This document shows positions 1-37,510 of a DNA stretch of 64,000 nt, one piece after another. Location of the stretch: the NCBI RefSeq assembly GCF_000023905.1, contig NC_013192.1, positions 868,001 to 932,000 of the forward strand, written 5' to 3'. This DNA is from Leptotrichia buccalis C-1013-b. Lineage in GTDB: Bacteria > Fusobacteriota > Fusobacteriia > Fusobacteriales > Leptotrichiaceae. A model generated the notes under the pieces. That model was not told the DNA's origin. It ran no database searches and saw only the letters and a program-made list of their open reading frames with translations. Position 1 is the stretch's first letter. Every line of letters starts with the position of its first letter. Both the position numbers and the translations under genes were made by a program.

Positions 1-2223
1 GAATTTTTAGGACTAACTTCAGGAGTAATTGTTGGAAATATTACGCCAGAACAAAGAAAAGCTAGTTACAACTGCGATATTACTTATGGAACAAATAATG
101 AGTTCGGATTTGATTATTTGAGAGACAACATGGTAGGAGAACTTGAAGATAAAGTACAACGTGGACATAATTATGTAATTGTCGATGAGATTGATTCGAT
201 TCTGATTGATGAGGCAAGAACACCGCTTATTATTTCGGGAGCCGCTGAAGAAACTACAGAATGGTACAATACCTTTGCTGAAGTTGCTAAAAGATTGAAA
301 AGAAGTTATAAAACTGAAGAAATTAAGGACAAGAAAAATACTGTAATACCAGATGAAGATTGGGAAGATTATGAAGTTGACGAAAAATCTCATACTGTAA
401 CAATTACAGATAAAGGGATTAAAAATGTTGAAAGAATATTAAAAATTGATAACTTATATTCGCCAGAATATGTAGAACTTACTCATTTTTTGACACAGGC
501 TTTAAAAGCAAAAGAATTATTTAAATTGGACAGGGATTATATTATCAATGATGAAAATGAAGTTATTATAGTTGATGAATTTACTGGTCGTCTTATGGAT
601 GGAAGACGTTATTCAGATGGCTTACATCAGGCGATAGAAGCTAAGGAAAAACTGGAAGTTGCTGGAGAAAATCAGACTCTTGCGACAATTACATTGCAAA
701 ATTACTTTAGAATGTATGAAAAATTATCAGGAATGACAGGAACTGCAAAAACAGAAGAAGATGAATTTAAACAAATTTATAGCTTAAAAGTTATTGTAGT
801 GCCTACAAATAAACCTGTTGCCAGAGTTGACTTGCCAGATGTAATTTATATGAATAAAAAAGCTAAATACAAAGCAATCGCAAGAAAAATCGAAGAACTT
901 TATCAAAAAGGGCAGCCAGTCCTTGTCGGTACAGCATCAATTCAACATTCGGAAGAAGTTTCAGCATTATTGAAAAAGAAAAAAATTCCACACGAAATAT
1001 TAAATGCTAAACATCATGAAAGAGAAGCAGAAATCATTGCCCAGGCAGGTCGTTACAAAACAGTAACAATCGCAACAAATATGGCAGGACGTGGAACAGA
1101 TATAAAACTTGGTGGAGATGCAGAATCTTTTGCAGCTAAAGTGGCAGTAAAAGGGACACCTGAATATGATGAAGTTCATAAGGCGTATGTAAAGGAATGT
1201 GAAGAAGACAAGAAAAAAGTTATCGCCGCTGGTGGATTGTTTATCCTGGGGACAGAAAGACATGAAAGTAGACGTATAGATAATCAGTTAAGAGGACGTG
1301 CGGGACGTCAAGGAGATCCAGGAACATCAGAATTCTACTTATCACTTGATGATGACTTGATGAGATTATTTGGTGGAGACAGATTAAAAACAATGATGAA
1401 AATGCTAAAAATTGATGAAGATGAGGAAATTCGTCATAAACAAATCAGTAAATCTGTTGAAAATGCACAAAAACGTATTGAAAGTAGAAACTTTTCATCA
1501 AGAAAAAGTCTTATTGAATATGATGATGTAAATAATACTCAAAGAGAAGTCGTTTATGAACAAAGAGATGCGATTTTGAAAAATGAAAATTTAAAAGAGT
1601 TAATTACAGCAATGATCTCAGATACTGTGGACGATATTGTAAATTCAGCTTATGTCGGTGAAGGAAGCGGAGAAAAAGACTTTAATTTATTGTCAGATAA
1701 ACTTCAGGAAACATTTGGATATGAAATTTCAGAAGGTCTGGAAAATGCAAGTGCAGAAGATATTTCAAATAAAGTTTACGATGATTTGATAAAACTTTAC
1801 GATGAAAAGGAAGAGGCAATTGGAGAAGAAATTTTCAGAAGAATTGAGAGGTATATAATGCTGGAAGTACTGGATTCTAAATGGAGACAGCATTTAAAAG
1901 ATTTAACAGAGTTACGTGAAGGAATAAGACTTCGTTCATATGGACAAAGAAATCCAATTCACGATTACAAAATTGTCGCTTATGATATTTACAATGAAAT
2001 GATAGATGCAATAAAACGTGAAACAAGTTCATTTATACTGAAATTAAGAGTACGTGGTGAAGAAGATACGAATAACTTGACACACGAGGAAGTTTCTAAT
2101 GTAAAATACGAACACGATGAAAATGAAATGATTGGTGACGATGTTTCAGACAGAATGCCATCTGAACCGCAACGTCCACTTTCAAGAAGGGAAAGAAGAG
2201 AAAGAGAAAGACGGAATGTCTAA
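1..2223 (+). CDS. secA: Preprotein translocase ATPase SecA (5' end outside window)
   Basis: SecA is the cytosolic ATPase that drives protein export through SecYEG. The reading frame is open from base 1, so the N-terminal nucleotide-binding part is missing. Visible SecA hallmarks are the run FDYLRDNM, then IVDEIDSILIDEARTPLIISG (the DEAD-type motif II region), EYDDVNNTQREVVY in the helical scaffold, and MAGRGTDIKLGG and GRAGRQGDPG in the second motor domain. The C-terminus ends in a basic Arg-rich tail (RRERRERERRNV) without the Cys-Cys-Cys-His zinc-binding segment that many SecA proteins carry. A terminator follows directly. Confidence 0.97.
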   Translation, partial: EFLGLTSGVIVGNITPEQRKASYNCDITYGTNNEFGFDYLRDNMVGELEDKVQRGHNYVIVDEIDSILIDEARTPLIISGAAEETTEWYNTFAEVAKRLKRSYKTEEIKDKKNTVIPDEDWEDYEVDEKSHTVTITDKGIKNVERILKIDNLYSPEYVELTHFLTQALKAKELFKLDRDYIINDENEVIIVDEFTGRLMDGRRYSDGLHQAIEAKEKLEVAGENQTLATITLQNYFRMYEKLSGMTGTAKTEEDEFKQIYSLKVIVVPTNKPVARVDLPDVIYMNKKAKYKAIARKIEELYQKGQPVLVGTASIQHSEEVSALLKKKKIPHEILNAKHHEREAEIIAQAGRYKTVTIATNMAGRGTDIKLGGDAESFAAKVAVKGTPEYDEVHKAYVKECEEDKKKVIAAGGLFILGTERHESRRIDNQLRGRAGRQGDPGTSEFYLSLDDDLMRLFGGDRLKTMMKMLKIDEDEEIRHKQISKSVENAQKRIESRNFSSRKSLIEYDDVNNTQREVVYEQRDAILKNENLKELITAMISDTVDDIVNSAYVGEGSGEKDFNLLSDKLQETFGYEISEGLENASAEDISNKVYDDLIKLYDEKEEAIGEEIFRRIERYIMLEVLDSKWRQHLKDLTELREGIRLRSYGQRNPIHDYKIVAYDIYNEMIDAIKRETSSFILKLRVRGEEDTNNLTHEEVSNVKYEHDENEMIGDDVSDRMPSEPQRPLSRRERRERERRNV

Positions 2224-2320: not shown

Positions 2321-2405
2321 TTTTCATTTAATTTCTCTTTTTTACAATATTAAACCTAATTTTTCTAAAATTTTAAAATCTATTTTTATTTTTATATCTT
2401 TTGTC

Positions 2406-2434
2406 AATTGCAATACAAATTGTGCCATTAAAAT
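2406..2434 (-). repeat. Solitary degenerate CRISPR repeat downstream of cas2
   Basis: Read on the minus strand, these 29 bases match the array repeat at 24 of 29 positions by eye (ATTTTAATGG..., versus GTTTTAATAG... in the array). It lies 65 bases beyond the cas2 stop and reads in the same direction as the cas operon, about 8.9 kb from the array. No second full repeat is visible beside it. A shortened look-alike (GGTTTAATATTGTAAA on the minus strand, 2341-2356) lies about 50 bases further on, but in such AT-rich sequence it may be chance. It could be a relic of an older array or the repeat of a crRNA-like regulatory RNA. Confidence 0.7.
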
Positions 2435-2499
2435 CTAAAATTTATAAGCTTAACAAATTTTATTTTAAATTTGTCGCATTTTATTATAATCTATCGCTG

Positions 2500-2778
2500 T
2501 TAAAAAAAATTTGAAGTTTTGTCGTCCTCTATTCCCCAAAATTCTTTTTCTAGCCATTTTTCTTGACGTGATTTAAAAATGATTAATGAATCTTTGTCTT
2601 TACGAATGTGACGTTTTAGTTCAAGGTTTAGTTTTTTTAATAATACTGGTGTTATTTCTCCTTCAAATACTGATTTTTGTACATTTGTTAAATATTTTTT
2701 ACAAATTTTAAATACGTTTCGAGAAATTTTGGGACCATTGTCTTCTGTTAGAATGTCGTACACTAAAATTATATACAT
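2500..2778 (-). CDS. cas2: CRISPR-associated endonuclease Cas2
   Basis: Cas2 forms the central dimer of the Cas1-Cas2 spacer integration complex. The 92-residue protein has the usual size and the ferredoxin-like start MYIILVYDIL, with the conserved Asp at residue 8. It is the last gene of the minus-strand cas operon, one base from the cas1 stop. The sequence assigns it to the adaptation module of the I-B locus. Confidence 0.95.
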   Translation of the reverse strand: MYIILVYDILTEDNGPKISRNVFKICKKYLTNVQKSVFEGEITPVLLKKLNLELKRHIRKDKDSLIIFKSRQEKWLEKEFWGIEDDKTSNFF

Positions 2779-2779
2779 A

Positions 2780-3772
2780 TTACCACCATATTTTAAATCC
2801 TTCGTATTTTTTATCTTCTAGCAAGTGTTTTACTAATTTGTATGCTTCTAAACGCATCAGGTGCCGATAGGAAACTTTTCGATTTAAATCTCTATGTTTT
2901 ATTGAGGTTTCTAATCTTTCGTTAAAAGTTTTTAAAATCAATTTTTGTGCATTTTCTTTCATGTAAAAATAGTTTGAATCTTTAACAAAATCTTTTTCTG
3001 TTATCATTTTTTTATTCAAAAGAGAAAAAATAATTCTATCTGCCAAAAGAGGCTTAAACACTTCAGCAATATCAAGTGATAATGAAAACCTTCTTTCTCC
3101 TACACTATGCAAATAGCTAATTGTGGGATTTAATTGACTGACATAAATTTCTGAAAGGCATGCTGTATAAACTAGTGTATTCAAAAAAGAAATCATTGTA
3201 TTAATCATATTATCTGGTGGCCTTTTTACTCTTTTTTCAAAGTCAATTTCCTGATTAACAATTGTATTCCATGCGGTATAATAAGTACGTCTGATACTTC
3301 CTTCAATTCCCATTAATTCATTAATCTCGTTTGTTCTAAAAATTCCTTTTTTCAGTGCCTTAATTTCTGTTATTATGGATTCTAAATCTTTTCCTCGTTC
3401 CTGATAATATCTTAAATTTCGCAAAATATTTGTGCTTGCTGCATCTATTATTAATTGTGCTAATTCAATTCTTTTGGCATTGTCTGTATAATTTTCAACT
3501 TGCTTTACGAATAGTTTTCCAGAAACATTTGATTCTTTTGGATAAAATGTTCCAGTGTAAAAACCATAATAATTAAAAATATGAACAGGAATTTTATTCT
3601 GTGCCAAGTAATTTAAACATTTTGTATTTAATGAAACTTCTCCAAATAAGTAAATATCTCTTGTAACTTCTATTTTTATATCTTTAAAACGTCCATCTGG
3701 CGCTGTTATTCTTATAACATTATCTTTACGTTTTAATTCACCGCTGGAAAAAATAAAATAACTTTCTGCCAT
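2780..3772 (-). CDS. cas1: CRISPR-associated integrase Cas1
   Basis: Cas1 is the metal-dependent integrase that inserts new spacers at the leader end of the array. I place the start at the ATG at 3772 (protein begins MAESYFIFSSGEL, 330 residues), because an AGAGAGG ribosome-binding site lies just upstream. The longer reading frame to 3820 would overlap cas4. The metal-ligand positions of the family are visible: Glu157 in GIEGSIRR, His222 in YLHSVGERRF, and acidic residues near 234-237 in LDIAEVF. It lies between cas4 and cas2, as expected for a type I-B adaptation cassette. Confidence 0.95.
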   Translation of the reverse strand: MAESYFIFSSGELKRKDNVIRITAPDGRFKDIKIEVTRDIYLFGEVSLNTKCLNYLAQNKIPVHIFNYYGFYTGTFYPKESNVSGKLFVKQVENYTDNAKRIELAQLIIDAASTNILRNLRYYQERGKDLESIITEIKALKKGIFRTNEINELMGIEGSIRRTYYTAWNTIVNQEIDFEKRVKRPPDNMINTMISFLNTLVYTACLSEIYVSQLNPTISYLHSVGERRFSLSLDIAEVFKPLLADRIIFSLLNKKMITEKDFVKDSNYFYMKENAQKLILKTFNERLETSIKHRDLNRKVSYRHLMRLEAYKLVKHLLEDKKYEGFKIWW

Positions 3773-3807
3773 TTTATACCTCTCTTTATGATATTTTTTT
3801 ATTAATT

Positions 3808-4296
3808 TTAAATGTAACAAAATTCATAGTATGCACATTTTTTACAAATTTTATCATTAATTACAGGAGGAGCTTTTTCATTTTTACAAATTTTTTCAAT
3901 ATCAATTAAAATTTCCTTCAATGTATTTTCGTCCTCTTTTGTCAAAATTATTTCCTTACGTTCCCTAATTACAGGATAATCAATAATCCCTTTTTCAATT
4001 TTTATTCCACGCTGTTTTAGAAAATAAATATAGTATTTTACTTGCCAAATTGCCGCCTCTTCCACAGCTTTACTTTTTTTTATTTCGTGAACAACTTGCC
4101 ATTTACGGATAAAATCAATGTTGACTGTTTCTTCTATCATAATTTGTTTAGTTTCCGAACTATAACTATTTTCATCAATTAATTTTCCTAGCTGAACATT
4201 TTCATTTTCCTCTTCAAGATTAATATTTTTAGACTGGCACCACAATTTACGTTTGCATATAAAATAATAGTTTATCATAATTCCTGTTATTTTCAT
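3808..4296 (-). CDS. cas4: CRISPR-associated exonuclease Cas4
   Basis: Cas4 is an iron-sulfur RecB-like nuclease that trims prespacers and helps select those with a correct PAM. The 162-residue protein has an N-terminal Cys pair (residues 14 and 20) and a C-terminal cluster, CKKCAYYEFC (Cys151, 154 and 160), for the Fe-S cluster. The nuclease core shows the ExK motif in HEIKKSK, followed by the QVKYY helix. It lies between cas3 and cas1, 18 bases from the start side of cas3. Confidence 0.93.
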   Translation of the reverse strand: MKITGIMINYYFICKRKLWCQSKNINLEEENENVQLGKLIDENSYSSETKQIMIEETVNIDFIRKWQVVHEIKKSKAVEEAAIWQVKYYIYFLKQRGIKIEKGIIDYPVIRERKEIILTKEDENTLKEILIDIEKICKNEKAPPVINDKICKKCAYYEFCYI

Positions 4297-4314
4297 TGTT
4301 TCACCTCATAACAT

Positions 4315-6729
4315 TTAAAAAGTATTATCTTCAAAAAAATCTCGATTTTTTATTTTTACTTCAAATCCTTTTTCATACGAATAATCACAATCTAAAATAA
4401 TCAATGTTTCATAATCATTTATTTCCATTTTTTCTACTTGTTCAGGAGAAATATCATCAAGTTCATATTCAGGAATTGCTACTTTAAATTGATTTATTTC
4501 TCGTCTTGCTTCTATTTTTTCACTTCTTAAATTTTTCCGCTCTTTTTCATTTAATCCCTTTGTTTTCTTCTGTAGGATTTCAATATTTTTCTCTATTTCT
4601 TCTTTATTTTCTTGATAAATAATTTTTGGAATTATATCTCTTGAAGCAATATTTCTAAAGATTTTCTGTACTTCTGATTTTGTTTTTTCATATTCCACTA
4701 TATAATTTTTCAAAGCATAAATATTTTTTACTAATTTTCCATAATACTCCGTATCTTTTAAACTTTCAGTTGAATAAACCTTATCAATCAATTCCAATTT
4801 TTCCTTTTCTGTAAGTAATCCATCAATGTTTATCAAGGCTTCTTTAGATTTTTGATGAATTTCTTTATCTATAACTGCTTTAGAACCCTTTATTCCGGAA
4901 CACTCTTCCGTAAAAACATAGCAGTTATATTTTTCATCCAAAATTTCTCTATTTCTGTAGCATCTTCCCATTCTCTGAAAAAGTCCATTCAAATCTGATA
5001 ATTCTGTAATAAGAATATCAAAATCCAAATCAAGAGATGCTTCAACTACTTGTGTACCAATCCAGATTCCATTTTCAAAAATATTTTTTGATTTTCTTTC
5101 TTTTTTTACACTTTGTTTAAATCTTTTAGGATTGGCAAATTCAGAAATTTCCTTTTCTTTTTTAGCCCTGTCTTTTTTTATAAATCGGCTATGAAGTAGA
5201 TTCAATTCTTTACACTCTATTCCTAAATTTTTCAAATTTTCATACATTTGTTTGGATTTTTTGACAGTATTGCAGACAACTAAAATTTTATTATCTTTGT
5301 AATTTTCTTTTATAAATTCAGCATTGATAGTATCTTTTAATACTTTTATATTATGTCTTTTTTTATCATTTATAAAAGGTTCTGTAGTTACAAATTCTAT
5401 TTCTTCCTTTTTTAACAAATCTATGATAATTCCTGGTAAAGTGGCAGTCATTATAGCAAATTTCCCACCAAAATCTGTAATATATTTAAGTCCGTATATC
5501 AAATAAGCTAATAAATCCGTTGAATACATCTGAATTTCATCAATAACCACTTTAGAATAAGATAGTGTAGCAACTTTTAATTCAAATCCCGGTGCTCTGA
5601 AAACAAAATCAAAAAGCTGGTCTATTGTGCAGACTGTCAATGGTAAGGAGAGCTGCTTTGTTTTATCTATATACATAAACAGATCATCATTATCCATTTT
5701 TTCTAGATTATTTTTTTCCTTCTTTTTTGTATCTTCTATATATATTTCTCTAAAATCTGAATGTAGCAGCCCTATTCTATTTTCTAGTTTTTCAATCACA
5801 ATCTGATTTTTCACCCTATTAAAAATGGAATTAATTGCTACTCTTAGCGGCAATGTGAAAAATCCCTTATTATTGCCTATCCAAAGTAGCCCCGCTTCAG
5901 TCTTTCCATATCCTGTCTGTGCCACCACTACAACATTTTCATTTTGATTATGAATCATAAACTTCTGCAACTCGTTCCAGTCATTTTTAGGATTATCCTT
6001 TTTCAATACATTTTTTAGAAAATCATCCATTTTTTCTTCAAGAAAATCATTTTTTTCCTCAACCGGAATATATGAACTTGCAGCATAATCTATTTTATTC
6101 AGTAATCCTTTTAACATCACATATTTTTGAAAAGTTTCAAAGGTTTCCTTTTCTGATAAGATAAAATCTTGAGAATAGATTCTTCCATTTAATTTATAAT
6201 ATTTTTTACTTAATTTCTTTAATTTTACTTTTTCATTCTCGATTTTAAAAATAGAATACTTTAAATTTTCTTCTATATTCTTATTCACATAGTCAAAATA
6301 TATATTTTGTAACTTTTCCAAATATTTTAGAAAATAGTCTGCTTCAATGTTCATTAATTCTATTTCTGACGAAAAATCTTCTTCTTCAATTTCTGAAATA
6401 TCTCTTTCATGATGTAATGCAACAGAATAGGATAAAACTTTAATATCACTTTTATCAAAACCATTTTCACTTAAACTTTTGCTATCTATAAAAGAAGTAC
6501 TTAATAGTCCATGAGGAAGTTCTCCATTTTGCTTTTGACCAGATAACTTACTTTGAAATTTTTTATTTATTTTCCCAAGATCATGATAAATACAGGCAAG
6601 TAATAATAATTCTTTATCCACATTTATCTCAGAATATATTGTAAAAAAGTTTTTAAAGTTATTAATCAGATTTTCTGTATGCTCCATTATTGTTTCACCA
6701 TTAGATTTTGCCAAAAACTCATTTTTCAT
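4315..6729 (-). CDS. cas3: CRISPR-associated nuclease-helicase Cas3
   Basis: Cas3 is recruited to the R-loop made by Cascade and unwinds and degrades the target strand. The 804 residues fuse an N-terminal HD nuclease (His17, then YHDLGK with His49-Asp50, and HHERD at about 106-110) to a superfamily 2 helicase. Helicase motifs are Walker A in QTGYGKTEAG (about 271-280), VVIDEIQMYS (DEIQ at about 397-400), TATLP and QRMGRCYR. An AGGAGA site precedes the ATG. It follows cas5 in the operon and appears intact. Confidence 0.96.
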   Translation of the reverse strand: MKNEFLAKSNGETIMEHTENLINNFKNFFTIYSEINVDKELLLLACIYHDLGKINKKFQSKLSGQKQNGELPHGLLSTSFIDSKSLSENGFDKSDIKVLSYSVALHHERDISEIEEEDFSSEIELMNIEADYFLKYLEKLQNIYFDYVNKNIEENLKYSIFKIENEKVKLKKLSKKYYKLNGRIYSQDFILSEKETFETFQKYVMLKGLLNKIDYAASSYIPVEEKNDFLEEKMDDFLKNVLKKDNPKNDWNELQKFMIHNQNENVVVVAQTGYGKTEAGLLWIGNNKGFFTLPLRVAINSIFNRVKNQIVIEKLENRIGLLHSDFREIYIEDTKKKEKNNLEKMDNDDLFMYIDKTKQLSLPLTVCTIDQLFDFVFRAPGFELKVATLSYSKVVIDEIQMYSTDLLAYLIYGLKYITDFGGKFAIMTATLPGIIIDLLKKEEIEFVTTEPFINDKKRHNIKVLKDTINAEFIKENYKDNKILVVCNTVKKSKQMYENLKNLGIECKELNLLHSRFIKKDRAKKEKEISEFANPKRFKQSVKKERKSKNIFENGIWIGTQVVEASLDLDFDILITELSDLNGLFQRMGRCYRNREILDEKYNCYVFTEECSGIKGSKAVIDKEIHQKSKEALINIDGLLTEKEKLELIDKVYSTESLKDTEYYGKLVKNIYALKNYIVEYEKTKSEVQKIFRNIASRDIIPKIIYQENKEEIEKNIEILQKKTKGLNEKERKNLRSEKIEARREINQFKVAIPEYELDDISPEQVEKMEINDYETLIILDCDYSYEKGFEVKIKNRDFFEDNTF

Positions 6730-6748
6730 AATTAATTTCTCCTATAAA

Positions 6749-8412
<1,664 letters not shown>

Positions 8413-8414
8413 AA

Positions 8415-10184
8415 TTATTCATTCCCTTCTTTTTTATCTGTCTTATTTTCATTCTTACTTTTATCTTCACCTAATAAACCTAATAAAAATCCATGACCTA
8501 ATGTCTGAAAATTTTCATCATTTAAAAGTGCTTTAGCAAAAAGTGAGCTAATATTTTTTCCTGCATAAGCATGAGCTGAAATCAGTGCATCCATAAACAT
8601 ATCAACATTATTAATTCTCAAAGCATTCTGAAGTCTGTATAACAGACTTCCAATCTTTTTATCATTTCCACTTTTTCTTATATATTCTTCCCTAAAAATC
8701 ATTGCATCTCTTCTTATATAGAAAATATCTTTTTCTGTTAATTCTTCTGATGTTTTCTTATTTTCCTTTTTTTCAATTATTTCTTGCTTATCCATTTTCT
8801 TCAACCTCCTGATATAATCCAAATTTATTTTTAGCAAATCTTCTATATTTTTTAGTTTACAAGATAATTTTGTTTTTGAAATCTTATAATAACATAATTT
8901 GTTTATTAATGAGAATAAATTTTGATTATTTAACAATTCTGTTATTGTTGTATCATAAAGATAAAAATACCTTCTATCAATTAAATACCATTTATCTAAT
9001 AAGGCATCTAATTTTTCTTTATTTTCAGATAAAAGTTTTAAAATATTTCGTGACAATAAAGTAAACTTATAATGTCCTTCCTCAAACTTCACAATCTGAA
9101 TATCTGATAATTCATATTTTGTATTGTCTTTTTCTTTCTTGATTTCCTTCAATAAATTTTTATACAGATTTATATTCTTTTCTTCCGACTCATCTTCTAA
9201 AATATTATATGCAATTCCATTATTTATTTTACATAATTGGTCTATATTATGATTTGCATTTACGAATATTCCTTTGTCAGCTCCGTATATAAATCCTGCC
9301 GGAACGCAGGAATAAACCAATGTAACTAAAGGAGTTACTGCAATATCATTTACAAAATTCCAGACATGTGACGGCTTTCTATTCACATCAAAACCTGTGT
9401 CATTTAAAAATCCTAATGTATTTTTATAATCCTTCATTAGCATATTCGAAAGTACACATTTATATTTAAATTTAGACTTGTCAGCATTAACATATTCTAA
9501 TGCAGGTTCTACAAAATATGATTTATGTTCTTCATAAATATCTTTAGCGGCATTTGCCCTATTTAAAAATGATACACTGCTCCAGGCATTATTTATTATT
9601 ACATAAGCTATATTTTTAGCAGCAAGATAATTTTTTACATTTCCGTTCTTATCAGTTATTTTCTTCTTAAAAAAATCAATAATTTCCTTCATAATTTTGA
9701 TATTATTTTTTACATCATCTTTTGAAATTTCATCAATATTTTCTTTAGGTTCTTTTATTTTTTTTAATTCCTTTTCCAGTCCTAAAATTTTATTAGTCCC
9801 GTCTTTTTCTATAAAATCATACGCCTTCTTATAACTTGCAGATTTAATTTTAGCTTTGAAAAATGTAATTTTGTCATTTATCATTTTTAATTCATTAATA
9901 CTTCTAATTTTTTCTCCATTTTCCTCAAATTCATCAATGTATTTTTCAAATTCCAGGATTTTACCATAAGTTAGTGTTTTCCCATATCTTTTTATAAAAA
10001 AATCAAAATATTTATACTCAAAGTTTTCCAGAACTTTTGGAGAAAATCTTATTAAGCGATTTTTATCATCTATTTCCAGTTCTCCATTATTTCTTGCTTC
10101 TTCTCCAAGAATATTTATAAATCCTAACAATCCAGCATTAAATAACCAATCCTTCAATTTCAATTCTATTTTTTCATCACTCAT
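8415..10184 (-). CDS. cas8: Type I-B Cascade large subunit Cas8 (Cst1-like)
   Basis: Cas8 recognises the PAM and starts target unwinding. At 589 residues it begins MSDEKIELKLKDWLFNAGLLGFINIL, the N-terminal pattern of Cst1/Cas8a-b proteins of the Tneap subtype. Much of the middle is Lys/Glu-rich and probably helical. The C-terminal part (about 500-560: RKSGNDKKIGSLLYRLQNAL and the following helices) resembles the fused small-subunit-like end of Cst1. I see no paired CxxC zinc finger; single Cys residues occur in KYKCVLSN and YSCVPAG. It sits between cas6 and cas7, with two bases to cas7. Confidence 0.88.
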   Translation of the reverse strand: MSDEKIELKLKDWLFNAGLLGFINILGEEARNNGELEIDDKNRLIRFSPKVLENFEYKYFDFFIKRYGKTLTYGKILEFEKYIDEFEENGEKIRSINELKMINDKITFFKAKIKSASYKKAYDFIEKDGTNKILGLEKELKKIKEPKENIDEISKDDVKNNIKIMKEIIDFFKKKITDKNGNVKNYLAAKNIAYVIINNAWSSVSFLNRANAAKDIYEEHKSYFVEPALEYVNADKSKFKYKCVLSNMLMKDYKNTLGFLNDTGFDVNRKPSHVWNFVNDIAVTPLVTLVYSCVPAGFIYGADKGIFVNANHNIDQLCKINNGIAYNILEDESEEKNINLYKNLLKEIKKEKDNTKYELSDIQIVKFEEGHYKFTLLSRNILKLLSENKEKLDALLDKWYLIDRRYFYLYDTTITELLNNQNLFSLINKLCYYKISKTKLSCKLKNIEDLLKINLDYIRRLKKMDKQEIIEKKENKKTSEELTEKDIFYIRRDAMIFREEYIRKSGNDKKIGSLLYRLQNALRINNVDMFMDALISAHAYAGKNISSLFAKALLNDENFQTLGHGFLLGLLGEDKSKNENKTDKKEGNE

Positions 10185-10208
10185 TTTTCTACCTTTTCCT
10201 AATTCAAA

Positions 10209-10991
10209 TTATTTCAATTTTTCCAGCATTCCAAATCCACTTCCAGTTATGCTCCCAAGCCCTGCATTATAAATATAATCCAAAATATAACTTTTCCCTT
10301 CCAATTTCAATATACCAACTGAAGTATCCAAAAATTTACCATTAAATTTATTTTCATAATTTAAAGTTTTATCTTTTTTAGTCTTATCATAATGCTTTAC
10401 AACGATTTTTTTAGTCTGACTTGAATCTATTATCAAATCTTCAATATCTTTTTTTACATATTCTCCTTTTAATTCTTTAAGTCTTGTATAAAGATTTCTT
10501 TTTATAATTTCAGTAAATTTATCGTCTGTTCCTATATAGTATGCATCTTTTTTAGTCTCCTGATTATGATCACGGCAAACTATTGGGGACATAGTTTTAA
10601 CGATTAATACATTGTCCTTTATAATTTTTCTCGGTAAAATCGAAATGTTAGTAACCACAACCTTTGTTTCTTCCGAAATTTCTATCTCTTTAAACCTAAG
10701 ACTTGAAAAAGCATTATAAATGTTCAAACTATCAACATTATCGTACGCTGAAAAATTAATTGTAGCCTTTTTTTCATCGCCTAAAAATCTAATTTCATTT
10801 TTTTCAAATTTTACATTCTGAAAATAAACCGCCCATGTATAATTTTTCTGTTTTGCAGTTCCAAAGAAATCTTCAAAAATATCAAGATCACACTGTTTCA
10901 ATCCTTTTTTTAAAATACGCAAAATCTTTGATCTCCAATTAACAGGAAAACTATTTCCTTTTATTAATTCAATATTAATTTTGAATCTCAT
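10209..10991 (-). CDS. cas6: CRISPR pre-crRNA endoribonuclease Cas6
   Basis: Cas6 cuts the array transcript within each repeat. The 260-residue protein has the RAMP start MRFKINIELIKG, the segment KQKNYTWAVYF typical of I-B Cas6, and the C-terminal Gly-rich loop GLGSITGSGFGML that binds the repeat. It is the first gene of the minus-strand cas operon. A promoter lies 50-80 bases upstream in the region shared with the array leader. Confidence 0.93.
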   Translation of the reverse strand: MRFKINIELIKGNSFPVNWRSKILRILKKGLKQCDLDIFEDFFGTAKQKNYTWAVYFQNVKFEKNEIRFLGDEKKATINFSAYDNVDSLNIYNAFSSLRFKEIEISEETKVVVTNISILPRKIIKDNVLIVKTMSPIVCRDHNQETKKDAYYIGTDDKFTEIIKRNLYTRLKELKGEYVKKDIEDLIIDSSQTKKIVVKHYDKTKKDKTLNYENKFNGKFLDTSVGILKLEGKSYILDYIYNAGLGSITGSGFGMLEKLK

Positions 10992-11041
10992 GTCTTTTTT
11001 ATACCTTTCTTTCTGTTATTTTTTTCTTTGAAATATAATAT

Positions 11042-11069
11042 ATTATATCCTATTTTCTATAAAAGTAAA
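11042..11069 (-). promoter_or_regulatory. Promoter of the cas operon
   Basis: On the minus strand a TATAAT -10 (plus-strand 11042-11047) is preceded, after 16 bases, by TTTACT (11064-11069). It points at cas6, whose ATG is 50 bases downstream. Confidence 0.55.
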
Positions 11070-11077
11070 TACTCGTA

Positions 11078-11093
11078 TAGTAAACTTTTACTA
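11078..11093. promoter_or_regulatory. Palindrome upstream of the cas promoter (possible operator)
   Basis: TAGTAAA, two bases, then TTTACTA form a 7-bp inverted repeat directly upstream of the cas -35 box. The position would suit a regulator of cas transcription, but no protein is assigned and AT-rich palindromes arise by chance. Confidence 0.35.
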
Positions 11094-11300
11094 CTATTCA
11101 ATATTTTTAATCTGTCGATGCCTAATAACTAAAAAATCCCTGTATATCGACAGATTTTTAAAATCACTGATTTTTACTAATTTTCTTAAATATTTTTAGT
11201 TTAAAATAAAAAATCAACCTTTAAAATTTTGAAAAAAAATTAGGTATCGACAAAATTGATAAAAAATGATATGATATACAAGGAAGTTAATAATGATTTA
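11094..11300 (+). promoter_or_regulatory. CRISPR leader with array promoter
   Basis: This AT-rich stretch adjoins the first repeat at the cas6 side. A promoter fits well: TCGACA (11247-11252), 17 bases, TATGAT (11270-11275), placing a start about 20 bases before repeat 1. The octamer TATCGACA occurs at 11145-11152 and again at 11245-11252, exactly 100 bp apart. An inverted near-copy (TGTCGATG) lies at 11113-11120. The first pair forms a perfect 11-bp inverted repeat (11109-11119 with 11146-11156). These are candidates for leader-anchoring or regulatory sites. Confidence 0.65.
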
Positions 11301-14300
11301 GTTTTAATAGCACAAATTGTATTGTAAATTATTAGAAACCTTGTTTTTAATAACAGGATTTTTTGTTTTAATAGCACAAATTGTATTGTAAATCTCCCTA
11401 CATCTTGTATTTTTAACACTCTTGTGCTAGTTTTAATAGCACAAATTGTATTGTAAATGCAAATGAAACTTTTAGTTGTGGATTGAAACATCCGTTTTAA
11501 TAGCACAAATTGTATTGTAAATGGAATAAAAGAAAAATTGGAGGAATACTTAAACCACGTTTTAATAGCACAAATTGTATTGTAAATGATGCTTTTAGTG
11601 CTTCTGCGAAAGTTTCAAAACTGTTTTAATAGCACAAATTGTATTGTAAATCAAGTATCTACCATCTGCATCTTTCCACAATTTCAGTTTTAATAGCACA
11701 AATTGTATTGTAAATAACACATTCAGGCACTCAATGACTATCTTAGCTGGCGTTTTAATAGCACAAATTGTATTGTAAATTCGTATATTATATGAGGATT
11801 ATAATACTTGTCAGCTGTTTTAATAGCACAAATTGTATTGTAAATGCTTTTCAACCCATTTAATATCCGTTTTAATGTTGTGTTTTAATAGCACAAATTG
11901 TATTGTAAATCATCTTAAAGCTGTATTTAATACCACTGACAAGGAAGTTTTAATAGCACAAATTGTATTGTAAATCTCCTCTTTGCCAATGTTGTTTTTA
12001 ATTTGCACTCGGTTTTAATAGCACAAATTGTATTGTAAATGATTAGTAAATACATAATGCAATAAGTCTAAATCATGTTTTAATAGCACAAATTGTATTG
12101 TAAATAATCACTTTGTATGCTTGACTTAAACTTACTTCCAAGTTTTAATAGCACAAATTGTATTGTAAATTTGCGTCTTCGATATAATCGAGAACGATTC
12201 TTTCAAGTTTTAATAGCACAAATTGTATTGTAAATGCTTTCTTGATATTATTATACTATACTTTTTATCAAAAGTTTTAATAGCACAAATTGTATTGTAA
12301 ATGCCTGTTAAGGACTTCAACAAGTTTTTCGTTTTGTGGTTTTAATAGCACAAATTGTATTGTAAATTTGTGAATATTTACTATTTGTTTCTCAACTTTA
12401 AATGTTTTAATAGCACAAATTGTATTGTAAATTCCGCCGCCGGACCGTAAATAATCGTATTATTGCTGTTTTAATAGCACAAATTGTATTGTAAATAATT
12501 GTATTATATGGAATGTTGGGACTGGCTGGTAAAGTTTTAATAGCACAAATTGTATTGTAAATGTGTAAACGGAGATTACAACAACATTATTAGAAAACGT
12601 TTTAATAGCACAAATTGTATTGTAAATATAATACCATTAAAGGCTTTATTTTTGAGTTTAATTGTTTTAATAGCACAAATTGTATTGTAAATTTGTATTG
12701 TTTGTGTCAAATTCTCCTAGAAGTGTACGTTTTAATAGCACAAATTGTATTGTAAATACAGGTATGGCACGTTCGGTTAGGTCTAATTAAATCGTTTTAA
12801 TAGCACAAATTGTATTGTAAATTTTTCTCTAATTCTTTAATTTTTGAATACAAACTGTTTTAATAGCACAAATTGTATTGTAAATTTCTTTATCTGAGCC
12901 TAAAATATCATCTAAAATTCTGTTTTAATAGCACAAATTGTATTGTAAATCAAAATTATTGGACTTTGGTAACTTTGATACAATTGTTTTAATAGCACAA
13001 ATTGTATTGTAAATTATATTGCCTTGTACTTGCCTTTACATATTGGTATCGTTTTAATAGCACAAATTGTATTGTAAATTAAAAATTGATAAAACTTGTT
13101 AATTAATACTTATTTGTTTTAATAGCACAAATTGTATTGTAAATGTTTTTAATGGAAAAAATGCAATAGATATTATGGAGTTTTAATAGCACAAATTGTA
13201 TTGTAAATTTATTCAACATCTCCTTATAGTTTTTATTAATTTTTGTTTTAATAGCACAAATTGTATTGTAAATTTAGTAAATACTTGTTGGGAAACAGAG
13301 AAATTATAGTTTTAATAGCACAAATTGTATTGTAAATGATGTAAAAGACGAAGAAGGGAATATTAATCTTAAAGTTTTAATAGCACAAATTGTATTGTAA
13401 ATGAAAAAGGACTTAAAAGATTTCGAGCAAGAAGAAAAGTTTTAATAGCACAAATTGTATTGTAAATACTTTTGAGGAAACTGCTGAACACATCTTGAAA
13501 GATGTTTTAATAGCACAAATTGTATTGTAAATAGTTATATCGCCAAAAACCTTTTTCAGCCTTCTGTAGTTTTAATAGCACAAATTGTATTGTAAATCTT
13601 GTTGTGCTTTAAATTTAGTTAGTTTTGCCATCTGTTTTAATAGCACAAATTGTATTGTAAATGCTTACACATTTGCTCAAGGAATTAATGGACGTTGGGT
13701 TTTAATAGCACAAATTGTATTGTAAATTTCCCGCCCGCAGCCCTTCAGTTGTGCCAAGTGTGGTTTTAATAGCACAAATTGTATTGTAAATTCAACTCCC
13801 CTTATTTTCTACCAGTACCTTTAAAAAGTTTTAATAGCACAAATTGTATTGTAAATATTCATTTATATAATCATATTCTTTTAATTTCTTTAGTTTTAAT
13901 AGCACAAATTGTATTGTAAATATACAAATTGTCTCTTTCCAAAAGTTATTAAATATTGTTTTAATAGCACAAATTGTATTGTAAATTTAAATCAATGATA
14001 AATTATTTTCATATCTGAACTTGTTTTAATAGCACAAATTGTATTGTAAATTAGTGTTAGAGGAATTAACACAATTAAAGATTAATTGTTTTAATAGCAC
14101 AAATTGTATTGTAAATATCAAAAAATAAGTATATTAATGATGATAATAATATGTTTTAATAGCACAAATTGTATTGTAAATTTTTCACTTTCTCGTTGTT
14201 GCTGTTTACTAATGTTGTTTTAATAGCACAAATTGTATTGTAAATCGAATTCTTCCATATCTGAAAATTTGCCTTTTTTAGTTTTAATAGCACAAATTGT

Positions 14301-16746
14301 ATTGTAAATTGCGGAATTGGCTTTTATTTAATTGAATGTTATTGTGTTTTAATAGCACAAATTGTATTGTAAATTTCAATACTATATTCTCTAATACTGG
14401 AATATCTTTGTTTTAATAGCACAAATTGTATTGTAAATAAAGGTTTCTAAAAACAATATCGGCGATTTCTGACAAGTTTTAATAGCACAAATTGTATTGT
14501 AAATATACAAATAGAAGTAGTTGCTAACAATAACAATAAGTTTTAATAGCACAAATTGTATTGTAAATTTTCTTCCGCAAATTGCACAAGTTCTTGACTT
14601 TAAGTTTTAATAGCACAAATTGTATTGTAAATTGATATTAAGAGAAAAGATTTGGAAGATGCTTTATTGTTTTAATAGCACAAATTGTATTGTAAATATT
14701 CACAATCATACACTCCATTAAACGTTGTAGTGGTTTTAATAGCACAAATTGTATTGTAAATGTTGCAGGACTGTTTATGGGAATTGCTGAAGCAATGTTT
14801 TAATAGCACAAATTGTATTGTAAATACAGTATCTTGTACTAATCTGTACTCTGAACTTTCGTTTTAATAGCACAAATTGTATTGTAAATTATGTTTACCG
14901 ATTTCCCTTTTGACGCTTTTATAAGGTTTTAATAGCACAAATTGTATTGTAAATCAATTTCGTGCAGTAAGTCATCTTCTTTCTTTTCATGTTTTAATAG
15001 CACAAATTGTATTGTAAATTCAAATTTTTGTTCTTTACGATGCAGATTGTTTTGTGTTTTAATAGCACAAATTGTATTGTAAATTGATATTAAGGAGGTG
15101 TAGATAATAATTGAGTAGTAGTTTTAATAGCACAAATTGTATTGTAAATATAATGGTAATTGGGACTTTTGCGGGCGTGGCCTTGGTTTTAATAGCACAA
15201 ATTGTATTGTAAATTTACTCAATCATATAATTTAAATGATAATATGTTTGGTTTTAATAGCACAAATTGTATTGTAAATAATTATGAAATATGGAAAGGG
15301 TATGTTTTTTCAAAAGTTTTAATAGCACAAATTGTATTGTAAATTTATCTTTGTATGTTTTTACATCACAATAAAAATAAGTTTTAATAGCACAAATTGT
15401 ATTGTAAATACAATCATCTGTAGGAGTGTGATTTATGGACATAAAGTTTTAATAGCACAAATTGTATTGTAAATAATTTTGATAGCTTTTCTTCTATTTT
15501 TGAAGCGGCTGTTTTAATAGCACAAATTGTATTGTAAATTAAAAATTTATTTCTTAAATAATTTCTTAATTCTGGTTTTAATAGCACAAATTGTATTGTA
15601 AATGTTGGGAGGACGAATAATGAGAGAAATAAAATTTAGGTTTTAATAGCACAAATTGTATTGTAAATTTTGTCTATAAGGAAAATATGGATATTTTTGA
15701 ACTGGGTTTTAATAGCACAAATTGTATTGTAAATGTTACAGTTCCTCATATTCTTTCAGGTTTTCCAGTATGTTTTAATAGCACAAATTGTATTGTAAAT
15801 AATAACCGTATTCGTCAGTTTTAAGATTATGTTCATGTTTTAATAGCACAAATTGTATTGTAAATCAATTCTGCTTTTTCTATCCAGTTCTGAACATACA
15901 GTGTTTTAATAGCACAAATTGTATTGTAAATTATAAACTGGCAATTGAAAAATCGTATTCGGGATGTGTTTTAATAGCACAAATTGTATTGTAAATTATC
16001 TTCCTTAGTTATTTGATAATACTTTTTCCAAGTTTTAATAGCACAAATTGTATTGTAAATCTTTGTGGTTGTTTTCAAAGATAAGTTCCTTTGCCTGTTT
16101 TAATAGCACAAATTGTATTGTAAATAGAAGATTTTATGTATGTAAGAAATGGTAAACAAGTGTTTTAATAGCACAAATTGTATTGTAAATGGAGAATTGA
16201 AGAGCCTTTAAAAATTCTGAAGGTACGTTTTAATAGCACAAATTGTATTGTAAATTGTCTAGTGAGCGGAAGACGACCCTTGAAACGAAGGTTTTAATAG
16301 CACAAATTGTATTGTAAATCATCTTCGGTGAAAGCAAATTTTTCTTGTAACTGACGTTTTAATAGCACAAATTGTATTGTAAATCGTCTAGTGTAGCAGT
16401 TCTTAGCCCACTGCGCAAGGTTTTAATAGCACAAATTGTATTGTAAATCCTTTTGAGTTATAATAATATCGCCAAATAAAATCGTTTTAATAGCACAAAT
16501 TGTATTGTAAATTTTTTATCACATAATTCTAATGAATAATTATCAAAGTTTTAATAGCACAAATTGTATTGTAAATCAAAACAAGGAGCGATAGTTTCGA
16601 CTATTTTTGGAGGTTTTAATAGCACAAATTGTATTGTAAATTTCTGTACATTTGCTATTTTATTCCAGCCCATAAAAGTTTTAATAGCACAAATTGTATT
16701 GTAAATTGCATTTTACCCTTGACTATTGCGGGCACAATTTGTAAAT
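11301..16746 (+). CRISPR. Type I-B CRISPR array, 84 repeats plus one degenerate terminal repeat
   Basis: I count 84 complete copies of a 29-nt repeat that begins GTTTTAATAG and ends TATTGTAAAT, starting at 11301 and with the last at 16678-16706. All copies read identical by eye. The 83 spacers between them are 34 to 38 bases, mostly 35 or 36. A shortened, degenerate repeat (GCACAATTTGTAAAT, 16732-16746) ends the array on the right. The degenerate end, the leader-like region on the left and the matching promoter all give a left-to-right orientation, divergent from the cas operon. The repeat resembles the 29-nt I-B repeats of Clostridioides difficile in length and at both ends. Short reading frames crossing the array are artefacts of the repeat. 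Confidence 0.98.
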
Positions 16747-16909: not shown

Positions 16910-17638
16910 ATGAAAAAAAATGTAGCAGCATTTTTTGATATAGATGGAACAATTTATAGGGATTCTTTGCTGATTGAGCATTTTAAAATGCTTGTGCAGT
17001 ATGAATATATTGATATGATGACTTGGGAAGGGAAAGTTAAGGAGAAATTTTCCAAGTGGGAAAATAGGACTGGGGATTATGATGATTATCTGGATGAACT
17101 TGTCCAGACTTATATGGAAGCATTAAAGAATTTTAGCAAAGAGGATATGGATTTTATTGCGAAAAGAGTAATGAAACTTAAAGGAGACAAAGTTTACCGA
17201 TATACACGTGAGAGGCTCAAATATCATAAGGAAAGAAATCACAAAGTTATAATTATTTCTGGAAGTCCAGATTTTCTTGTAAGCAAAATGGCTGAAAGAT
17301 ATGGAGTTAAGGATTACAGGGCATCTACTTATGAAGTTAATGAAAATGGCATTTTTACAGGAAAAGTGATACCAATGTGGGATGCCAAGAGTAAACAAAA
17401 AGCAATAGCAGATTTTTGTAAAATGTACAAAATAGATTTGACAAAATCATATGCTTACGGAGATACAACAGGTGACCTGACAATGTTCAAAAATGTAGGC
17501 AAGGCTATTGCTATAAATCCAGCTAAAAAATTATTGCAAAAAATAAAGCGGGATAAGGAATTGAAGGAAAAAGTTATGATTATTGTAGAAAGAAAAGATG
17601 TTATTTATAAATTAAAAGCAGATGTGGATATTATATAG
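16910..17638 (+). CDS. HAD-superfamily IB hydrolase (SerB-like phosphatase)
   Basis: The protein has the three haloacid dehalogenase phosphatase motifs: FFDIDGTIY at residues 8-16 (nucleophile Asp), IIISGSP near residue 120, and YGDTTGDLTMF near 180-190. A helical cap of about 90 residues lies between motifs I and II, as in subfamily IB enzymes such as phosphoserine phosphatase. The substrate cannot be read from the sequence. I chose the ATG at 16910 over that at 16904, because AAGGGAG lies seven bases before 16910 but only one before 16904. It stands alone, between the array and a 2-hydroxyacid dehydrogenase. Confidence 0.85.
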   Translation: MKKNVAAFFDIDGTIYRDSLLIEHFKMLVQYEYIDMMTWEGKVKEKFSKWENRTGDYDDYLDELVQTYMEALKNFSKEDMDFIAKRVMKLKGDKVYRYTRERLKYHKERNHKVIIISGSPDFLVSKMAERYGVKDYRASTYEVNENGIFTGKVIPMWDAKSKQKAIADFCKMYKIDLTKSYAYGDTTGDLTMFKNVGKAIAINPAKKLLQKIKRDKELKEKVMIIVERKDVIYKLKADVDII

Positions 17639-36322: not shown

Positions 36323-37510
36323 ATGTCAAAAAATAAGTATATTGATATGGATATAACAAATTTGCCAACACCAGCGTTTATAGTTGATGAAAGGCTGCTA
36401 AAAAGAAATCTTGAAACATTAAAAAGTGTAATTGATAGAACAGGATGTAAAATATTGCTTGCACAAAAGGGATTTTCGATGTTTTATTTCTATCTGTTAA
36501 TTAGTGAATATTTAAATGGTACGACTGCAAGTTCATTATTTGAGGCAAGACTTGGGTATGAGGAAATGGAATTGAAAAATCCTGGTAAAAAATTAGAAAC
36601 TCATATTTTTAATCCGTCTTACAGGGATGATGAGTTTGATGAAATAATGGAAATAACAAATCATATTGTTTTTAATTCTTTCAATCAATGGAAAAAATTT
36701 AAAAGTAAAGTGAAGGAATTTGAAGAAAAGAATGGTAAAAAAATTAGCTGTGGACTTCGGTTAAATCCAGAATTTTCAGAAGTTGAAACAGAGATTTATA
36801 ATCCAGCGGGAAGGTTCTCAAGATTTGGCGTAACACTCGAAAACTTTAAGGAAGATGAGATTGAAGGCTTGGATGGCTTTCATTTCCATGCACTCTGTGA
36901 GCAAAATTCAGATGCGCTTGAAAATGTATTAAAAATTTTTGAACAAAAATTTGGGAAATACCTGTATAATATGAAATGGCTTAATTTTGGCGGAGGACAT
37001 CACATTACAAGAGAAGATTATGATATTGAAAAACTTGTAAAATGTATAAATTATATAAAAGAAAAATATAATGTGGAAGTGTATTTGGAGCCAGGAGAAG
37101 CGGTTGCCTTGAATACAGGATTTTTAGTTTCGGAAGTTTTAGATATTACAAAAAATGAGATGGATATTTTATTAATGGATACTTCGGCCTCCTGCCATAT
37201 GCCTGATGTAATCGAAATGCCATACCGTCCATTTATTTTTGGTTCAGGAATGCCAAATGAGAAGAAATACACTTATAGATTGGGAGGGCCTACTTGTCTT
37301 GCTGGAGATATAATCGGAGATTATTCCTTTGATGAACCTGTAAAAGTGGGAGATAAGCTTATTTTTACTGATATGGCACATTACAGCATGGTTAAGACGA
37401 ATACTTTCAATGGGATAAATTTGCCTGTGATTGCAGTTTATACAGAAAAAGGTGGAGTTGAGGTTATTAGAAAATTTGAATACGAAGACTTTAGAAATAG
37501 ATTGTCATAA
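36323..37510 (+). CDS. nspC: Carboxynorspermidine/carboxyspermidine decarboxylase
   Basis: NspC is a PLP enzyme of the alanine-racemase fold that makes norspermidine or spermidine by decarboxylation. The 395 residues show the PLP Lys region ILLAQKGFS (about 44-52), TTASSLFEARLGYEE, the FHFHALCEQNSDAL motif and LNFGGGHHITREDYD, all typical of NspC. TSASCHMPDVIEMPYRP and GPTCLAGD complete the active site. The usual partner, carboxynorspermidine dehydrogenase, is not adjacent. The gene has its own AAAGGAG site and a terminator on either side. Confidence 0.93.
   Translation: MSKNKYIDMDITNLPTPAFIVDERLLKRNLETLKSVIDRTGCKILLAQKGFSMFYFYLLISEYLNGTTASSLFEARLGYEEMELKNPGKKLETHIFNPSYRDDEFDEIMEITNHIVFNSFNQWKKFKSKVKEFEEKNGKKISCGLRLNPEFSEVETEIYNPAGRFSRFGVTLENFKEDEIEGLDGFHFHALCEQNSDALENVLKIFEQKFGKYLYNMKWLNFGGGHHITREDYDIEKLVKCINYIKEKYNVEVYLEPGEAVALNTGFLVSEVLDITKNEMDILLMDTSASCHMPDVIEMPYRPFIFGSGMPNEKKYTYRLGGPTCLAGDIIGDYSFDEPVKVGDKLIFTDMAHYSMVKTNTFNGINLPVIAVYTEKGGVEVIRKFEYEDFRNRLS

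Follow-up and report, generated by a model that had tools for sequence, protein, structure and literature searches.

A single degenerate CRISPR repeat lying just past cas2 in Leptotrichia buccalis C-1013-b is, as judged from sequence comparison, very probably a decayed vestige of a second CRISPR array, one that formerly stood behind cas2 on the strand of the cas genes. This assignment is based on the position of the repeat, its strand, its sequence affinity and the synteny of the locus. The window (the whole stretch of DNA that was analysed, 64,000 nucleotides) encodes on its minus strand a type I-B operon that is complete, in the order cas6, cas8b, cas7, cas5b, cas3, cas4, cas1 and cas2, together with a surviving array that is divergent from the operon and has its leader upstream of cas6 (Table 1). 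The lone repeat is located on the cas strand, with the cas2 stop codon 65 bases before it and the convergent secA gene on its other side, and the distance between it and the surviving array is 8.9 kb.

Table 1. Features of the window that bear on the origin of the lone repeat
Feature	Position	Strand	Evidence or remark
secA	1-2223	+	Pfam SecA domains; start outside the window
Would-be spacer after the lone repeat	2340-2405	-	No cas-promoter seed match; no homology to known trailers or spacers
Lone degenerate CRISPR repeat, very probable second-array remnant	2406-2434	-	Matches the local repeat at 24/29 and the G010 repeat at 26/29; beyond chance
IS30-family terminal inverted repeat remnant	2457-2497	.	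Begins where post-cas2 homology to relatives ends
cas2	2500-2778	-	TIGR01573, E 1.5e-13; array directly downstream in relatives
Remaining genes of the complete I-B operon (cas1, cas4, cas3, cas5b, cas7, cas8b, cas6)	2780-10991	-	
Surviving-array leader	11090-11300	+	83-86% identity to the leaders of both G010 and G008 arrays
Surviving array	11301-16706	+	84 identical repeats; 83 spacers and one terminal spacer
Oldest spacer and degenerate terminal repeat	16707-16746	+	Common to the G010 cas2-side array
HAD hydrolase gene	16910-17638	+	Pfam HAD, E 2.3e-20

Read on the minus strand, as the reverse complement, the lone repeat is ATTTTAATGGCACAATTTGTATTGCAATT and differs from the local array repeat, GTTTTAATAGCACAAATTGTATTGTAAAT, at 5 of 29 positions. 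It is closer to the repeat of the arrays in the related genome G010 (ATTTTAATAGCACAATTTGTATTGTAAAT) than to that of its own array, with 26/29 identical positions and three mismatches, and two of the five differences from the local form, at the first base and at the T in CACAATTTG, are the letters found in the relatives' (G010) repeat. The next best match in the window, with the array excluded, had nine mismatches to the local repeat and seven to the G010 repeat. No second repeat was detected beside the lone one, and a search of the 2.47 Mb genome at up to three mismatches returned no repeat copy other than those of the array.

The relationship between the lone repeat and the arrays of related bacteria was studied by comparing cas loci across the family. 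Each of the six relatives examined whose I-B cas1 is close (G006, G008, G010, G014, G017 and G020) has a cas2-side array on the cas strand; a close cas2 is carried by three genomes of the genus besides the window's own. G010 and G008 each have, past cas2 on the strand of the cas genes, a leader of ~ 204 nt and then a full array, while a second, divergent array is located upstream of cas6; the leaders of the cas6-side and cas2-side arrays are 93% identical to each other in G010 and 77% identical in G008. Three of the six relatives, G014, G017 and G020, belong to other genera of the family, and in these the cas1 gene is 88-94% identical and the array lies just past cas2 on the same strand. In G006 an array follows cas2, and a second array a few kb away opens with a cas2 fragment and a leader, a pattern that would fit frequent recombination of arrays and leaders in this lineage. 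Most of the I-B loci fetched from other bacteria also have an array that starts at a similar distance past cas2, and in a survey of Leptotrichia every I-B array found was downstream of cas2 and/or upstream of cas6 (PMC6914741). The lone repeat therefore stands at the family's standard array position and in the correct orientation. The original prediction had looked to conservation of the lone element among relatives as support for a regulatory role, and this did not materialize: no relative examined has kept the repeat as a solitary element, and a whole array is present there instead.

Other features of the relatives' loci were also observed. The I-B operon of G006 is split (L017:685-8761, L018:1-5000), with an array between the interference genes and cas2-cas1-cas4. 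The cas2 gene of G008 (L003; G008:C4:220416-220691) contains an in-frame TGA, and it may be that the adaptation module of this genome is broken or that the TGA is a sequencing error. In the cas2-side array of G008 (L015), spacers 1-2 recur as spacers 3-4, which is a tandem duplication through recombination within the array.

The flanking genes allowed the surviving array to be matched to its counterpart in the relatives. The CRISPR-free genome G002 yielded no close cas2, and there the HAD hydrolase gene comes immediately after secA. Along the secA strand, G008 has secA, then an SPFH-like gene (a by-eye assignment) and the cas6-side array, followed by the cas genes from cas6 to cas2, the cas2-side array and the HAD gene, whereas the order in the window is secA, the lone repeat, cas2 to cas6, the array and the HAD gene, so that the cas genes of the window are flipped relative to secA and HAD when compared with G008. 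The HAD gene is adjacent to the cas2-side array in G010 and G008 and to the cas6-side array in the window; G010 differs further in that its secA runs in the opposite direction. The oldest spacer of the window array is identical at 21/21 bases to that of the G010 cas2-side array, and the trailers are ~ 91% identical. By its flanking genes, trailer and oldest spacer, the surviving array corresponds to the cas2-side array of the relatives, yet it now lies beside cas6, and the cas cassette has therefore probably been inverted between two inverted arrays. Such an inversion is the simplest account of the data from comparing window positions 2500-16746 with L013-L016 of G010 and G008, with the arrays, which are inverted repeats of each other in the relatives, as the likely crossover sites. 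Within the literature library covered, a search on the inversion of cas cassettes between arrays returned nothing specific. As a separate observation on the surviving array, 18 consecutive bases at 36326-36343 of the window are identical to its 44th spacer; this could mark a partial self-target or be a coincidence of AT-rich sequence.

Past the cas2 stop codon, homology between the window and the relatives is lost. The terminal-repeat sequence that begins there is dispersed in at least 10 of 13 genomes of the genus, and in G012 a match to it ends an element with inverted repeats (L115 1457-1489 and 2483-2515) around an IS30-family transposase frame, so that an IS30-related event near the site of the lost leader is likely. 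The bases on either side of the lone repeat were also compared with the relatives. Leader homology in the bases preceding the repeat did not rise above chance, and no spacer was found in common with the lone element. Comparison of the bases after the repeat with the G010 and G008 trailers, including an alignment of AAGATATA to the end of the second G010 array, gave nothing above chance (P 0.38), and this candidate homology was rejected. The missing leader and trailer homology is expected if a deletion removed both, and it is not decisive. Downstream of secA, positions 2257-2321 hold a hairpin-forming sequence of ~ 65 bp that is dispersed across many genomes of the genus and is possibly a repeated extragenic palindrome or a shared terminator.

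One history that would fit these data begins with an ancestor in which two arrays in inverted orientation flanked the cas genes. Recombination between the long inverted arrays would then have flipped the cas cassette, and the secA-side array, now adjoining cas2, would have been lost along with its leader; an IS30-family insertion or deletion probably had a part in this, given the partial IS30 terminal repeat that directly follows cas2. A single repeat would have remained which, unused and outside array upkeep, would have accumulated substitutions of its own. Note that both the order of events and the role of the insertion sequence are what we infer, rather than what was shown. We also infer that the lone repeat is most likely without function, although a lack of constraint on the repeat would be an indirect conclusion, since the comparison covered one genome of this species.

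It could be that the cas mRNA carries the lone repeat in its 3' end and is cut there by Cas6, with consequences for the stability of the operon mRNA. No terminator-like site was present between cas2 and the repeat, so read-through transcription would be possible, and the repeat lies on the correct strand close behind cas2 with its core retained. However, the lone copy is not predicted to keep the small stem of the ancestral repeat, the predicted energy changing from -1.9 to -0.6 kcal/mol with a different pairing (the predicted stem of the local array repeat is also weak, at -0.4 kcal/mol), and evidence from conservation is absent. Cleavage by Cas6 was considered very unlikely. If Cas6 does still cut there, the repeat would be a Cas6-dependent feedback site for the operon, inherited from the lost array.

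Slightly less likely again is a CreR-like autoregulator, in which the repeat and the bases following it would serve as a crRNA-like guide, bringing Cascade to the cas6 promoter and so reducing cas expression. In favour of this, the lone repeat is degenerate, lies within a cas locus on the cas strand and could be transcribed by read-through from the operon. For such a guide, the seed at positions 1-5 and 7-11 after the repeat should match the promoter beside a PAM (rule from PMC8501985). A search of the bases following the repeat for partial matches to the cas promoter had been suggested earlier, and it gave no support: across the whole cas6 upstream region the best seed match was 7/10, a value equalled by random stretches (null P 0.89). 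Moving the repeat boundary by up to three bases yielded two 9/10 matches in the cas6 upstream region, neither of them beside CC, and the shifted boundaries gave 23 to 54 equally good (9/10) matches across the window, with no shift beating chance.

The same test was applied to other I-B loci. Lone degenerate repeats upstream of cas6 were observed in Listeria cornellensis (L042:2489-2518), Enterococcus sp. CSURQ0835 (L046:2894-2922) and Peptoniphilus stercorisuis (L064:2875-2904), and in all three the 11 bases that follow show a 10/10 seed match to the nearby cas6 upstream region, preceded by CCT in the first two loci and by CCA in the third. CCT and CCA are PAMs of clostridial I-B systems. Further lone matches in L048 and L056 had no 10/10 seed. 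The seed test is thus able to detect real-looking cases, and the three repeats are candidate CreR- or CreA-type guides in I-B loci, on sequence grounds. Set against these, the lone repeat of the window scores 7/10, it is not upstream of cas6 as the three real-looking cases are, its 8-nt handle is altered at 2/8 bases (from TTGTAAAT to TTGCAATT), and a solitary element is absent from every relative examined.

A CreTA antitoxin, with the repeat inside a creA gene that represses the RNA of a neighbouring toxin, is less probable still and would be a surprising outcome here. Known CreA genes occur in I-B loci with one or two degenerate repeats (PMC9458426, PMC8501985). In the window, however, the unshifted seed pattern occurs nowhere else, and the earlier remark that no toxin-like mini-gene lies beside the repeat was borne out, the only frames of at least 12 codons there being of 33 and 28 codons and without convincing ribosome sites. 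The 28-codon frame, which overlaps the lone repeat, was considered as a toxin and rejected, as it has no relative in the genus. Two of the eight handle bases have changed in the lone repeat, and known CreA repeats are divergent as well. Taken together, a reading of the lone repeat as a regulatory RNA is not supported. The original prediction had left the choice between a CreA-like or regulatory guide and the last trace of a second array; the latter is strongly supported by the relatives' arrays and the affinity to the G010 repeat, while the former is not supported, given the want of a seed match, a toxin and a second repeat.

The 24/29 minus-strand match, in line with the cas operon and far from the array, proved exact as described. 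A chance resemblance in DNA that is strongly AT-rich in the surrounding region is refuted, to the point of being negligible, by the Markov statistics, since 2 Mb of order-3 Markov sequence searched on both strands contained no match to the local repeat at seven or fewer mismatches (observed, five) and 2 Mb of such sequence contained none to the G010 repeat at six or fewer (observed, three). The position and strand of the repeat also suit an array.

A solitary degenerate repeat within a cas locus is thus not necessarily a regulator, and the array layout of relatives should be checked first. The contrast is between a relic at the relatives' array site, without a promoter match, and the lone repeats that precede cas6 and have perfect seeds. 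The lone repeat matters little by itself; of greater interest are two side results, the inversion and the control loci.

Among known systems, the lone repeat resembles CreR, the crRNA-like autoregulator of cas genes (reviewed in PMC12737573), in being a degenerate repeat in a cas locus, but unlike CreR it is placed past cas2 and away from the cas promoter, has no promoter seed and is not kept as a solitary element in relatives. It is similar to CreTA (PMC9458426, PMC8501985) in being a degenerate repeat adjoining I-B cas genes, and differs in that there is no toxin gene, no seed match and one repeat only. With Racr, the solitary repeat RNA anti-CRISPRs of phages (PMC10651486), it shares solitariness, but its place is the host cas locus, with chromosomal secA on one side and cas2 on the other, and not a prophage, and a scan of viral contigs for the exact pattern of the lone repeat gave zero matches. 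Compared with the cas2-side I-B arrays of the family, the lone element is reduced to one repeat that has no leader and no spacer boundary and carries its own substitutions, whereas it agrees with the Leptotrichia-family I-B array downstream of cas2 (PMC6914741) in where it lies, in its strand and in the sequence of its repeat (26/29 to G010).
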